A DNA stretch of 21,477 nucleotides from a virus. The translations under genes and the position numbers were made by a program. Where the stretch lies: positions 1 through 21,477 of IMG/VR virus record IMGVR_UViG_3300050015_000066; one strand, given 5' to 3'. Shown in pieces: positions 2,626 through 21,275 of the stretch. Positions within the stretch are counted from its first letter, which is position 1, and every line of letters begins with the position of its first letter. The notes beneath the pieces were generated by a model, which saw only the letters and a list, made by a program, of their open reading frames with translations, was not told the origin of the DNA and searched no databases.

Positions 2626-5600
2626 GGTGCCGGTAGATATTGCATGTCACCACAGTTAACACCGGATTTCATGTAGTCGTTAGCCCATATACCGTCATTA
2701 CATACACAAGCCCTTTGACTGAGATAATCAATCCAAGGTGTAGCGTATGGATTAACTGAGTAAGTATTACACTCATTGCCATAGAACATATCTTGAGAAT
2801 TGTTAAATGGAACTGTACATGTATCGGTAAACAATGTTATACCGCTTGGCAAAGCTGGAGCACCAATAGGAACAACCGTTCTAGCTTCAACTTGTGGAGG
2901 CATTGGATAATATTTTGTATTATCGGTATCAGTCAAACAATTGCCGTTATCTTCGACCCAAGCACCTTGAGTAATAAATTGTGTTCCACCAGTGTTAGCA
3001 TTCCAGACAGCTTCCGGTGGTTGTGGTGGTCTTTGCCAGAATGGATCGTCAATGGCTTGTCTAATGTTACCTTGCCACATGGAACTGTAATCTGGATCAA
3101 AAGTAGCACCGCCCCACCCTAGGTTAACCGAACTACTCACATTTGCCCACTCACCATTAGGCGAATAGAAAGCAATTGAAGCACCACAAGGATTGAATGA
3201 CACACAGTTATTTTTGACCGTTACACTTGTCATTGTCCTATCACCACAGTTTGTTGCTGCTGGTAATGTAGCAACTTCTGGATTGGTGCAGATACCAAGA
3301 TTATTAAATTGTCTTTGTTGTTCTAATGTTCTGTTATACTCACCAACACCACGATAATTAAAATGCCAGTCGATAGATACAAATTCACCTTTAGATTCTG
3401 TGTCGTTCCATTTCCAGTCGGCACCATTACTTGAATACAATTGACCAGTATTAGCTTTATAATCATTGGTCATTACACAATCAACCAATGTTATGTTTTG
3501 GTTATCATTAACAATGACAGACCACACACCATTGATATTACCACCAACCGCACCAGTTATTGTTACGGCGTCACCAGTTACTAGATAGGTTGGTTGGCTT
3601 GGTTTAATATAATTATTGATACAATCTATATAACCAACTTCAACTCTTCCACAGATTGCTGGTTTTAATGTTTGCCATTTCAACGGAGCAATAATACCCG
3701 TCCCACATTCTACTATAGGTTTATCAGGTAGATTTGAACCACTCACAACACAGCTAACCAAATTAATATTATAGTTATCAACCTTGTTAACTTTATAACA
3801 ACCTTCATATAATGGAGCACATAACCAGACCAATGTATTGGTCGTTATTCCTTGAACATATGGTCCAGTTGGCTCTAATTCAACTCTTGAACCACTTATA
3901 TTAGATATATTTAATACTTTGGTATTATCAATTTGGAATCTATCAATACCACATGGTCTAGCGAAATTAATACTTGGTTTCTTGAAGATAACTTCAGCGG
4001 TCTTACAAGCCCACATTAACCCAGTTGTAAACTGTGTTGGATTACCGGAATTACCTGTTGCTAGTAATGACCAGAAGAAACCATTACCCACAAACGCAGA
4101 ATCTGGAACCGAACTTGCCTCATAGTCGTTTAGCCAAGCTGTAGCAGAACCACCACCAATAGAATCATTATAAGCACCATAATTCTTTTCATAGATTGTT
4201 TTTTGCTCTTGTTGATTACTATCAATATATGTACAAATACAATAATTCGGGTGTGCTGGATCCCAGACATGATCAAGACCGCTTGGGCCAGGTATTCCAT
4301 AAGTGTCACCCGTTGAACTGTTATCTGGTATACCTGTTATAATTGGAGAATTTTCGTGTTCGTCATAGTAACACACTGGACCTTTTGTGGTGTTGCCGTC
4401 TTGTCGCCATGGTAACAAATCGTCCCTGTCTAGTGGTAGGTTAGCCAACAGGTTTGTTAAATCAGTCTGCAAATCACTTGTTGAATATGGATTGGATAAA
4501 GTGGTTACAACGCTGATATGAGTTTCCGTATCGTTTTGCCAACTAGAACCAACTTCTGGATAGGTATCAAGCGTATGTGTGTAGGTTGTTCCTGTCCATT
4601 CGTAATGATCATGTGATATCAAACCCCAACCCGGCTTGCATTGTTCTGAGTCACAACTATTACGACATTTTTTAGTTACGTCAGAAACATAGAAATCAAG
4701 TGTGCTTGGTAAGCTGATAACTAACTTATATCTTACTCTATCGTCTTCGTAGTGGACCGTAGGGCAACCTATATCATATCCTATGGTTTCGTGCCATTCT
4801 ACTGTCCAACTAGAACCAGCACCAGAAAACACCATGTTATAAGCTGGTTGGTTGTTGTTAAGATAATATATTACCCTCTTCAGAATGGTATATTCTGGAT
4901 CGTCACACTCACCAGCCATTAATAATGCTTCATTGGCTCTATATAGTTCGGATATCTGTTGATCCTCTGGATAATACCACTCAATACCAGACATGGTTGA
5001 TCCAGAACTATATGCGTTAACAGTCAGATTACCACTATATCTATCGACTGTAGTTGAGACGTGTGCTGTATTGGTTTCGGACGTTGTTGTATCAAGAATA
5101 TATTCCCGGCAATAATTATCGGTTGGCCAGTCATTACCTTGACCGTCTGGACATATGTAATAACCAGAATATGTAGTTTCTTTATGATAATTTTTTTGAG
5201 TAACAGTCTTACTAACAACTGAATCAATAGATAGATATTTTACAGTATCAGGACTTAATATTGGTTTTAACTCTGCACATTGAATGTTACCATATGATAA
5301 ATCTATACTTGTAGGTGTCTTAGCACCCGGACTATTGAAACCATATCTACCATGAAAAGCTTTCTTCGCATAAGCTCTTTTATAACCTATATAAGAAATT
5401 GAATCACAAGGATTATTTTGTGGTTGGCCAGTGTTAGCATAGTAATTCTCATACGGTCCAACTAAGAAAGAACTGGTTCCTATACCAGTCATTATCTTGA
5501 TATCGTCAGGTATAGGAATACCACAATAAGGTTCTCCGTTCGGTGTATCCCTTATACCACAAACTGGATTATAATCGGTGTCACAACTAGGAACGTCTTT

Positions 5601-13170: not shown

Positions 13171-14013
13171 TTATTTGTTTGTTTGTCCAATTGTTTCGTT
13201 AATTAATGTTACCAACTCACCCAATGAATTGATATTGCCGTCAGACAATCCATTAACTACTGCTGTTTCTCCGTCAAATACTTGACCCTGCAAATACTCG
13301 TCAGATATCTTGCGGTTGTTGTTAACAGTTGATTTAAATTGTTCGTAAGTCTTGTTTACGTCAGTTTGGAACATGGCTCTTTCTTCGTCAGACATAGGAC
13401 GGAATGAAGCACCACTTAATTTATACTTACCAGCGGAAATAGCATTAACTGTAATACCAGCCTTGTCTAACTGTCTAGATTGGTCCATAATCAGCGTATA
13501 GACACCAACAGAACCTATCTCAGCACTAGGTGAAGTATAAACATACTCACATTGGCTAGCCAACCAATAAGCCGCAGAAGCACATAATGTATCAGTATAA
13601 GCAAAACATTTTTTATTCTTGTTGATCGATTGTATCAAGTCACCCAACTCCCTAACCCCTGTGACTGTTCCACCGGGACTGTTGAAGTATAGGACAATGT
13701 TCTTTATGTTATCGTCAGCCGCAGCAGCTTTTAGGTCTTCGGTTACACAATCCAAATCACAAGCACCGCACATGGTTTCCATGATAGATAAGTGTTTGCC
13801 GATAATACCTTCAACATTGATAACCGCTACATTGCCAACGGTTGTCTCTTCGTCCATTGGTTCCTGCGGCATATTTTCTGGCATGTCGTCAGGCATTGGC
13901 ATACCGCCCTTAATGTGGTTCTCAAATTGTTTAACAAGCGATTGGTGAACCATAGGAAGGATACACCACTTGTCTTGATACAACTTATTAGCTATATGTG
14001 AAAAATTCTTCAT
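13171..14013 (-). CDS. Prohead protease, peptidase family S49 (280 aa)
   Basis: This is the SppA/lambda gpC-type serine protease that cleaves scaffold and portal during head maturation. Visible signs are VAVINVEGIIG (62-72), the oxyanion segment NSPGG (111-115), the nucleophile Ser146 in CASAAYWLAS and the general base region AGKYK (194-198, Lys196/198). The EIGSVGVY segment (165-172) is typical of the family. The length suits a protease domain alone, without the C-terminal scaffold fused in lambda C. A cysteine cluster CGACDLDC (82-89) is unusual. The gene begins 3 nt after the portal stop, so the two are probably coupled. Confidence 0.93.
   Translation of the reverse strand: MKNFSHIANKLYQDKWCILPMVHQSLVKQFENHIKGGMPMPDDMPENMPQEPMDEETTVGNVAVINVEGIIGKHLSIMETMCGACDLDCVTEDLKAAAADDNIKNIVLYFNSPGGTVTGVRELGDLIQSINKNKKCFAYTDTLCASAAYWLASQCEYVYTSPSAEIGSVGVYTLIMDQSRQLDKAGITVNAISAGKYKLSGASFRPMSDEERAMFQTDVNKTYEQFKSTVNNNRKISDEYLQGQVFDGETAVVNGLSDGNINSLGELVTLINETIGQTNK
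13184..13190 (-). promoter_or_regulatory. TTGGACA box before scaffold and capsid
   Basis: TTGGACAAAC lies 33 nt upstream of the scaffold start at 13150 and inside the last codons of the protease gene, where it encodes part of the Ile-Gly-Gln-Thr end. With the terminator at 11754-11792 it would define a two-gene scaffold-capsid unit. Confidence 0.5.
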
Positions 14014-18541: not shown

Positions 18542-18557
18542 ATGCTTAATTATGTTA

Positions 18558-18564
18558 TGTCCAA
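18558..18564 (-). promoter_or_regulatory. TTGGACA box before the terminase module
   Basis: TTGGACATAACATAATTAAG ends only 16 nt before the small-terminase ATG. A 12-bp perfect palindrome TATACATGTATA (18567-18578) lies directly upstream and could be an operator. Confidence 0.5.
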
Positions 18565-18566
18565 GA

Positions 18567-18578
18567 TATACATGTATA
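18567..18578. repeat. 12-bp perfect palindrome in the divergent region
   Basis: TATACATGTATA touches the TTGGACA box of the terminase module. A similar GATATACACATATG sequence lies at about 18595-18608. A possible operator for one or both directions. Confidence 0.45.
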
Positions 18579-18671
18579 ACCTATGCCCAATTATAGATAT
18601 ACACATATGATTATGTATCTGGTGTGTATAACGTTACTATGGATATCCAATGCTAAAATTATAATAAGTGA

Positions 18672-18875
18672 GTGAGTAGTGTAAAGAAAGCTTACAAATA
18701 CGTGAAAGCAGCTCTCACGGTCACCTACGCGAGTTTTACGTTAACGTTAAAAGAATACCTATACGGGCCATATCCCGTATTACAGTGGCCTATAGGCCCT
18801 ATTAGGATTGGATATAGGCAATCTTTATTGTTGTTTGTTGCGATTGTATCAACCATTTGTTTCTATTGCCTATGA
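18672..18875 (+). CDS. Doubtful small membrane protein (67 aa, GTG start)
   Basis: An open frame from GTG at 18672-18674 (an in-frame TGA lies directly before it, and there is no ATG) to TGA at 18873-18875. The product would have a basic N-terminus (VKKAYKYVK), a YGPYPVLQWPIGP stretch and a C-terminal hydrophobic segment SLLLFVAIVSTICFYCL that could span a membrane. Codons and base content differ from the neighbours, being richer in GC. Against it: the same bases form several perfect palindromes, which suggests selection on DNA or RNA structure instead of protein. No Shine-Dalgarno sequence or box precedes it. Confidence 0.28.
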   Translation: MSSVKKAYKYVKAALTVTYASFTLTLKEYLYGPYPVLQWPIGPIRIGYRQSLLLFVAIVSTICFYCL

Positions 18876-18950
18876 CAGTGATTAGACTTGTTGTTGATTG
18901 ATTTATATAATCAATTGTTTCGATTGTTGTATGTGTCATGGGCACCCATG
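18681..18950. repeat. Cluster of inverted repeats, GC-richer island
   Basis: Within 270 bp: CGTGA/TCACG around 18701-18719; ACGTTAACGT (18738-18747), a perfect palindrome; ATACGGG/CCCGTAT (18761-18767, 18774-18780; 6-nt loop); GGCCTATAGGCC (18787-18798), perfect; ATAGGCAAT/ATTGCCTAT (18814-18822, 18865-18873); TTGATT/AATCAA (18894-18899, 18909-18914); CATGGG/CCCATG (18937-18942, 18945-18950). Such density suggests a structured RNA, an origin or a protein-binding region. Confidence 0.6.
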
Positions 18951-19631: not shown

Positions 19632-20150
19632 ATGACAACACAAATAGGATTAGATTGTTCAACTACCACCTGTGGTTATTCTATAAATGAAAATGGTGTA
19701 ATAGTATCAGCAGGATTTATTGATTTAACTTCTTTGAATACTACCAAGAATAAAGCATTCTATATTCTTAATGTTATAGACCCACTAATAAAACAATTTA
19801 ATGTTGGTGTTATCAATCTGGAAGCAGCAATGTCTGGTTTTCGTGGTGGAAAGACTTCACAACAAACTATAATTAAATTGGTTAGAATGAATTGTATTCT
19901 AGAATATGTTTTGATTGAAAAATATAAAGACACCAAAATCAATTTGGTTAATGTGTTATCTGCTAGGAAGCAATTGTTTGGTAAAGCTTTCGTAAAAGGT
20001 ATACCAGCAAAGAAATATGTCCAGATTGAACTTGATAAGCTTATGGGCTCATTAATCTATAAGTTCTTTGTATTTACTAAGAAAGGTAAACTGGATAAGC
20101 GAAACGAAGATTTGTTAGATTCAATAGTGTTATCATTATTCAACAGTTAA
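19632..20150 (+). CDS. RuvC-like Holliday junction resolvase (172 aa)
   Basis: A RNase H-fold nuclease. Motifs: IGLDCSTTTCGYS with the first catalytic Asp8, the VINLEAAMSG segment with Glu64, and a C-terminal NEDLLDSIVLS with Asp160/Asp163. These match the D-E-D-D arrangement of RuvC and related phage and poxvirus resolvases. The length is right for a complete protein. It should cut branched DNA made by recombination and replication so that the terminase can package it. The ATG at 19632 is the first in frame. It is the only convincing plus-strand gene. Its stop overlaps the stop of the convergent neighbour within TTAA. Confidence 0.85.
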   Translation: MTTQIGLDCSTTTCGYSINENGVIVSAGFIDLTSLNTTKNKAFYILNVIDPLIKQFNVGVINLEAAMSGFRGGKTSQQTIIKLVRMNCILEYVLIEKYKDTKINLVNVLSARKQLFGKAFVKGIPAKKYVQIELDKLMGSLIYKFFVFTKKGKLDKRNEDLLDSIVLSLFNS

Positions 20151-20377
20151 ATATAATATTGCATTCTTTGTTTTCTCATTTCTTGAATGGTATCATAATA
20201 TTCTTTTGAACAATGCTTTTTCAAATATATACCTTCAGGACTCTCTTCATATTGTTTAATTCTATATTCTATTCTAGAAAGCAATTGATACTCTTTATTT
20301 AATCTTATTTTTTGTTGTTTCTCTTTTTTTCTATGTAACTTTATAAAATGTTGTTTTATTTGTTTTGATTTCTTCAT
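20147..20377 (-). CDS. Small basic protein of unknown function (76 aa)
   Basis: A very basic helical protein: the first 26 residues hold about a dozen Lys/Arg (KKSKQIKQHFIKLHRKKEKQQK). It continues as a charged helix with YQLLSRIEYRIKQYEE, and ends with Tyr- and Gln-rich sequence. It could bind nucleic acid. Its stop overlaps that of the convergent resolvase gene. It lies 100 nt downstream of the putative structured RNA and may be transcribed with it. A 14-bp palindrome and a 9-bp hairpin occupy its leader. Confidence 0.6.
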   Translation of the reverse strand: MKKSKQIKQHFIKLHRKKEKQQKIRLNKEYQLLSRIEYRIKQYEESPEGIYLKKHCSKEYYDTIQEMRKQRMQYYI

Positions 20378-20390
20378 ATTGTTATGTTAC

Positions 20391-20404
20391 CAACTTTAAA
20401 GTTG
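20391..20404. repeat. 14-bp perfect palindrome upstream of the small basic gene
   Basis: CAACTTTAAAGTTG lies 13 nt before the ATG at 20377. It could be an operator or a short hairpin that hides the ribosome site. Confidence 0.5.
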
Positions 20405-20429
20405 TTTATCAAATTGTTATAAAATTTAT

Positions 20430-20457
20430 TTAATGCTTGTTGTAGGTTAAGCATTAA
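20430..20457 (-). terminator. 9-bp hairpin, weak terminator or leader element
   Basis: TTAATGCTT (20430-20438) and AAGCATTAA (20449-20457) form a perfect stem with a 10-nt loop. On the minus strand it is followed by ATAAATTTTAT, not a clean T run, so termination is uncertain. Confidence 0.35.
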
Positions 20458-20515
20458 GCAATGTATTATATATGTTATCTCTGAAGTATAAATGTCCTTG
20501 TTACAGGACGTATTA

Positions 20516-20565
20516 AAAAAAGAATATAAAAACCACATTTTAATATGATTCTTATATTCTTTTTT
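20516..20565 (-). terminator. 14-bp A/T stem with T run near the ncRNA 3' end
   Basis: On the minus strand AAAAAAGAATATAA (20552-20565) pairs perfectly with TTATATTCTTTTTT (20516-20529), across a 22-nt loop, followed by TTAATA. It may be the 3' terminator of the RNA or an internal helix; being A/T-rich on both arms it might act on either strand. Confidence 0.5.
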
Positions 20566-21026
20566 CCTTCAGAGAATATGTTATCTCCTTCGAGATTATC
20601 GTAATTCGGTTTATACTGGGTCCCCCTGTTTTCCGGAATCATTAACACTGATTCTTGATAATCTATTAATATTCCGTTAGTTTGAATTCTTCAACCTCAA
20701 ACACTGGAATATACTTTACCAATTAAACTCCATTAAATAGTTTTAAATTGATAATAATGGTCGGTCACACTACTCTTACATAGTTTTACTCACCATTAAA
20801 TATTTAGTGGAGCTCCTTTTGTTATTCTTCTATAAGAGGTTCCCATAAGAACCAGAGTCACGTTGTGTCTAAACATACTGTTGTGGTTTAGATTCACCTT
20901 TTGTAGGAGTGTTGGTATCATATAGATATTCAACCTTTGACTACAGAGAGTTTATTTTTGATATTCACCAGTAGCTTCCCTCGATCTACTGTTAACTACG
21001 ATAAGTGTTTAATTATATAAATAAAT

Positions 21027-21126
21027 TGGGCGAAATGTTAAGAAAAGAAACTGTGTGAAAAAAGAAGTAGAAGTCGTTAACACTCGCCCATAAAATTCTA
21101 ATACTACTACTTCATACTTTTCACAC
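21027..21126 (-). other. Interleaved inverted repeats forming a long H-type pseudoknot
   Basis: Stem 1: TGGGCGA (21027-21033) with TCGCCCA (21084-21090), continued by TGTTAA (21036-21041) with TTAACA (21077-21082): 13 pairs. Stem 2: GTGTGAAAA (21053-21061) with TTTTCACAC (21118-21126) and GAAGTAG (21064-21070) with CTACTTC (21107-21113): 16 pairs. The 5' arm of stem 2 lies in the loop of stem 1 and its partner lies outside, which is the pseudoknot order. Pairing holds for either strand. Confidence 0.75.
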
Positions 21127-21144
21127 TTATACATATAGTTTATT

Positions 21145-21151
21145 TGTCCAA
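21145..21151 (-). promoter_or_regulatory. TTGGACA box before the putative ncRNA
   Basis: TTGGACAAATAAAC lies 18 nt upstream of the pseudoknot. Nineteen nt after its TTG comes TAAGTGTG, one base from the Bacteroidota -7 consensus TAnnTTTG, so it could be a -33/-7 promoter; transcription would then start within the first pseudoknot arm. Confidence 0.5.
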
Positions 21152-21197
21152 AACGCTCAATTTATTTTAACTATTTTCATTATTTTAATTTAACAAT

Positions 21198-21224
21198 AAA
21201 AAAGCCCATACACAAGTATGGGCT
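21198..21224 (-). terminator. Strong intrinsic terminator of the gene at the right edge
   Basis: A perfect 9-bp stem AGCCCATAC/GTATGGGCT (21203-21211, 21216-21224) with a 4-nt loop is followed on the minus strand by TTTTTTATTG. It lies 87 nt after the stop of the gene that enters from the right and closes that transcript before the ncRNA. Confidence 0.85.
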
Positions 21225-21251
21225 AAAATAAATGAGTAACTAAGAAACGAA

Positions 21252-21275
21252 AGTGATATTAAATCACCTATCACT
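21252..21275 (-). repeat. Hairpin in the 3' region of the right-edge gene
   Basis: AGTGATA (21252-21258) and TATCACT (21269-21275) form a 7-bp stem with a 10-nt loop, between the stop codon at 21312 and the terminator. It might protect the mRNA end. Confidence 0.4.

Follow-up and report, generated by a model that had tools for sequence, protein, structure and literature searches.

Introduction

To our knowledge, only a few classes of large structured RNA have been described from phages, and what ROOL and GOLLD do there is an open question. ROOL typically lies near tRNA islands and forms a homo-octameric cage; OLE, a bacterial gene occurring mostly in extremophiles, works with small protein partners, including OapA, which is a membrane protein, and others. 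Both ROOL and GOLLD form RNA-only cages, whose function is unknown (PMC12286853), and phage K has abundant intergenic lncRNAs, one of them with its own promoter (PMC9241854). The phage K lncRNAs were merely likened to ROOL and GOLLD by the authors and not filed as members (PMC9241854); their transcription was measured, whereas that of the element described here is predicted from its sequence.

This element lies in a 21,477-nt contig (the window), which makes up the whole virus record and is probably a fragment of a larger genome. As proposed below, it shares with ROOL a size of about 550–660 nt, the encoding by a phage or prophage, a multibranched fold with pseudoknots and a stand-alone nature, with GOLLD its being phage-borne, large and ornate, and with OLE a length of about 600 nt and many stems. 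It differs from ROOL in having no sequence or structure match to it at E ≤ 10, in lying outside any tRNA neighbourhood and in being thermodynamically much more marked; from GOLLD in having no match at E ≤ 10, in being shorter and likewise in the absence of a tRNA neighbourhood; and from OLE in the lack of an Rfam match and in its neighbour, a basic 76-aa ORF without a family.

Results

The region matches no known RNA family

No Rfam family reached its gathering score anywhere in the contig, in keeping with the first-pass annotation, which had described a structured RNA without a recognisable family and called for this search. When the region alone was searched at E ≤ 10, only terminator look-alikes and chance matches were returned, with no ROOL, GOLLD, OLE, HEARO, tmRNA or introns among them. 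The ROOL model (RF03087) found no match in the contig at E ≤ 10 and, as a positive control, recovered the real ROOL of plasmid pMP118 (130 bits, E 1e-29); the GOLLD model (RF02032), which represents the conserved 3′ half, found none at E ≤ 10 either, its control genomes giving sub-cut-off matches only. By ARAGORN, no tRNA genes were detected in the 21.5-kb (partial) contig. The likeness to ROOL and GOLLD suggested at first reading holds only for size and phage context, as both models fail at E ≤ 10 and no tRNA is nearby. A diverged ROOL or GOLLD RNA would suit the size, the phage location and the ornate fold; it is nevertheless largely refuted and most improbable, because RF03087, RF02032 and the other Rfam models all gave no fitting match at E ≤ 10 while the ROOL control worked, and the contig carries no tRNA genes. 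A type III toxin-antitoxin RNA was rejected as no tandem repeats occur in the element, and a pRNA as the phage has a GpA-type terminase.

The interval appears non-coding and is strongly structured

The 875-nt stretch at 20378–21252 is bordered on one side by a small gene at the contig's right end and on the other by the 76-aa ORF. No other gap in the contig reaches 180 nt while lacking ORFs of at least 60 aa. Within 20478–21126, the longest ORF is 57 aa and the codon log-odds fall below zero in each of the six frames, which upholds the earlier statement that no credible protein gene is present.

Folding was assessed by z-scores from dinucleotide-preserving shuffles. The whole region yielded z-scores of −5.9, −6.4 and −7.5 in three runs on the minus strand and, about as extreme, −5.2 to −7.2 on the plus strand, compared with values between +0.7 and −1.7 for coding controls. 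As a genuine ROOL RNA gave z-scores of just 0.0 on one strand and −1.5 on the other in the identical test, the element stands out more strongly than a known RNA of ornate fold. Although hairpins are cheap in this interval because it is AT-rich (31% GC), the dinucleotide-preserving shuffles allow for such bias. The structure is concentrated at both ends of the region, the middle being only moderately marked, and a strand-neutral tally of G-U versus A-C mismatches did not discriminate between the strands. At least eight hairpins had been claimed, and more than eight were found on the minus strand, the individual helices of the middle being no better than chance. The interval is thus strongly structured and without a known family, and it appears to be non-coding.

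Such a stretch could also stem from a gene in decay or from sequence inserted recently, its structure being accidental: one minus frame contains 7 stops in 219 codons, where 12 would be expected in the best of the six (P = 0.02), and relatives are without any such gap at the locus. However, no codon signal was detected, no protein family matched pieces of this few-stop frame, and fold z-scores of −6 to −7.5 are not expected from decay, making this origin very unlikely.

The element appears to be an orphan in a little-known phage

The contig carries a leftward structural module comprising the terminase small and large subunits, portal, S49 protease and tail proteins. The nearest named relatives of its terminase and portal are those of Verrucomicrobia phage P8625 and Akkermansia phage Moulinsart (24–29% identity), and the best relatives in IMG/VR reach 39–49% identity. 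Homologues of the element were sought by blastn (words of 11) among phages and plasmids and by exact DNA patterns in IMG/VR, a search by which a diverged RNA would be missed, and both returned chance matches only. In about 0.9–1.0 Mb from terminase and portal relatives, neither blastn nor covariance models gave a match, and no comparable gap was found near the terminase and portal genes of these relatives; among 289 genomes from the phylum to which a distant relative belongs, there was either no match or one at chance level. The non-coding gaps in four relatives (L008, L034, L035 and L113) had no Rfam match and were less structured than the element. Judged by these searches, the element appears to be a single orphan sequence among the phage, plasmid and IMG/VR records searched. 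The earlier argument that a compact phage genome would keep such a stretch for a function is reasonable, the relatives being almost without such gaps; their near-absence also shows a lack of conservation of the element at the locus.

As a separate observation, the terminase relative L113 has a 315-nt ORF-free gap (4893–5207) with a fold z of about −3.6 on both strands and no Rfam match.

A recurrent promoter-like box and an upstream terminator favour the minus strand

A promoter-like box, TTGGACAAATAAACTATATGTATAAG, is located on the minus strand at 21126–21151 (TTGGACA 21151–21145, TATAAG 21131–21126), in agreement with the first-pass annotation, which had mentioned such a box, and the same box (TTGGACAAATA...TATA) is found again in front of further phage genes. 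TTGGACA was found 12 times in the contig versus 2.6 expected, with 7 of the 12 outside genes (binomial P about 3e-5, an approximate value, as the gene list puts six of them in intergenic space, while the seventh, at 13190, overlaps with the last part of the gene before it). All seven share the orientation of the next gene; they lie at 21151, 15895, 13190, 9974, 2059 and 18564 on the minus strand and 19606 on the plus strand. TATA occurs 13–14 nt past the box in three cases, and in three genes (one with TTGGACG) the box is only 23–26 nt before the ATG, which is close for a classical −35. From this distribution, the TTGGACA box is likely a promoter or initiation element of the phage.

A strong intrinsic terminator, consisting of AGCCCATACTTGTGTATGGGCT and a T-run (9 pairs, 5 GC), lies upstream of the element on the minus strand at 21224–21203, as expected from the earlier description of an insulated element, and is predicted to end the upstream transcript. 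With this terminator and the recurrent box, a minus-strand transcript starting near 21117–21119 is likely. The neighbouring gene likewise makes the minus strand the likelier of the two. The proposed structured ncRNA (minus strand, 20478–21119, ~640 nt), supported by the lack of coding signal, the fold z-scores and the lack of an Rfam match, would have its 5′ end near 21117–21119, as set by the box, and its 3′ end between ~20478 and 20420. A sigma-70-like site at 21041–21012 is possible as the sole promoter, but was discarded as the 5′ pseudoknot would then be lost from the RNA.

We lean towards reading the interval as an orphan, stand-alone large structured phage ncRNA of ~640 nt on the minus strand that is probably not ROOL or GOLLD. 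It would be transcribed leftward from its own phage-type box (21151–21126), be insulated by the terminator of the upstream gene, and have a fold of three modules, beginning with a 5′ pseudoknot, continuing as a closed multibranch body and ending in a rigid 3′ three-way junction.

The predicted fold comprises a 3′ junction, a multibranch body and a 5′ pseudoknot

The 3′ three-way junction (20478–20575, minus strand) is formed by an outer helix, UCUCUGAAG (20575–20567) with CUUCAGAGA (20486–20478), and two inner hairpins, one of 24 bp (20566–20515) and the GUCCUGUAACAAGGAC hairpin (20509–20494); in the RNA reading, CUCUGAAG/CUUCAGAG surrounds the 24-bp hairpin and GUCCUGUAACAAGGAC. Its folding gave −46 kcal/mol, a z of −10.5 and an MFE frequency of 0.36, with a z of −8.4 in another run. 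The junction reported at first inspection is present on the minus strand. It is more stable there than on the plus strand (−42.2 versus −29.7 kcal/mol), and only on the minus strand is its hairpin a continuous 24-bp helix. An exact 12-nt repeat, GAGATAACATAT (minus), occurs at 20470–20481 and 20576–20587, with a 3′-domain stem ahead of each copy.

A small hairpin, UCUC GAAG GAGA (20584–20595, minus), adjoins the multibranch middle domain (20596–21004, minus), which is closed by UUAUCGUAGUU (21004–20994) pairing with AAUUACGAUAA (20606–20596) and includes the hairpins CAGUAG/CUACUG, UCUAAAC/GUUUAGA, GGUUC/GAACC, CUCCA..UGGAG and GAAUCA/UGAUUC. The z-scores of this domain are −2.7 on the minus and −4.8 on the plus strand, and the closing helix by itself is not significant.

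The 5′ pseudoknot (21027–21126, minus), also announced by the first reading, consists of the outer helices GTGTGAAAA (21126–21118/21061–21053) and GAAGTAG (21113–21107/21070–21064), together with a crossing helix, TGGGCGAG (21090–21083) with TTCGCCCA (21034–21027), that is continued by GTGTTAA/TTAACAT. None of 300 local shuffles reached its level in one test and none of 150 in a second, in which the two-layer pseudoknot energy had a z of −4.3 for this domain; a comparable helix pair appeared somewhere in 9 of 100 full-region shuffles. Folded from 21119, the 5′ domain falls to a z of −2.0. With a 5′ end near 21117–21119 as set by the box, most of the outer pseudoknot helix would be outside the RNA, and the first helix may thus lie partly upstream of the transcript. 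The promoter-like box and the pseudoknot are further bracketed by a 14-nt inverted repeat (21019–21167, strand not assigned), AAATAAATTGAGCG (21167–21154) with CGCCCAATTTATTT (21032–21019), which competes with the crossing helix and is possibly an operator or an alternative fold.

These repeats might act in the DNA itself, as a replication origin, a site for packaging or partition, or an operator with extruding or protein-binding inverted repeats, RNA then being irrelevant. The helices come close to perfect inverted repeats and are of about the same extremity on either strand, the 14-nt repeat surrounds the box, and terS is ~2 kb from the structured element, all of which would fit such a role. 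No iterons or tandem arrays were found in it, however, pseudoknot topology and multibranch closure have no obvious role in DNA, the 24-bp hairpin is unbroken only in RNA of the minus strand, and 650 nt is long for an operator; a DNA-level function is accordingly quite unlikely.

A basic 76-aa protein is encoded directly downstream

A 76-aa protein (20147–20377, minus) is encoded directly downstream of the element, its ORF beginning 100 nt past the 3′ junction. It is basic (pI 9.9; 21 K/R, 9 D/E) and matched no protein family, and pattern searches in IMG/VR yielded no relatives of it or of the RuvC protein of the contig. By position and charge alone, it is a plausible RNA-binding partner of the element.

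Its mRNA may possibly be led by the element, which would then be a very long structured 5′ leader of the 76-aa mRNA, perhaps extending to genes further left, and act by attenuation or protein feedback. The short distance from the 3′ junction would agree with a leader, as would the finding of neither a strong terminator between the element and the 76-aa gene nor a TTGGACA box belonging to that gene, and the duplicated GAGATAACATAT beside two stems would suit alternative pairings. Yet none of the 3′-domain stems reaches over the start codon, the genes that follow include none of a known regulatory type, and usual leaders are far shorter than 640 nt, so that we regard a leader as unlikely.

For the stand-alone ncRNA that we favour, the fold would most likely serve as an RNA scaffold during infection, as proposed for ROOL, GOLLD and the phage K lncRNAs, and the scaffold would possibly act with the basic 76-aa protein. 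We suggest only tentatively that it stands for a new class, in which a small basic phage protein would accompany a large, ornately folded RNA of the phage that combines a 5′ pseudoknot with a rigid 3′ junction. If true, it would be an independent, sequence-unrelated example in a lineage whose nearest named relatives infect Verrucomicrobiota, pointing to repeated origin and a common need, and the candidate protein neighbour would provide a handle on function.

Other features of the contig

The RuvC-like resolvase (19632–20150, plus strand) is the sole credible rightward gene, and its end overlaps that of the 76-aa gene by 4 nt. A second stretch without a leftward gene (18542–18950, 409 nt) contains several hairpins with a weak fold z (−1.6) and a 67-aa plus-strand ORF without a PHROGs match. 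The C-terminus of a 160-aa protein (2076–2558, minus) shows a weak match to DUF6171 (E 7e-5, short of the curated cut-off). Shine-Dalgarno-like motifs were observed ahead of just 3 of the 22 contig genes, and 19 of the 22 have a T at position −1 (TATG).
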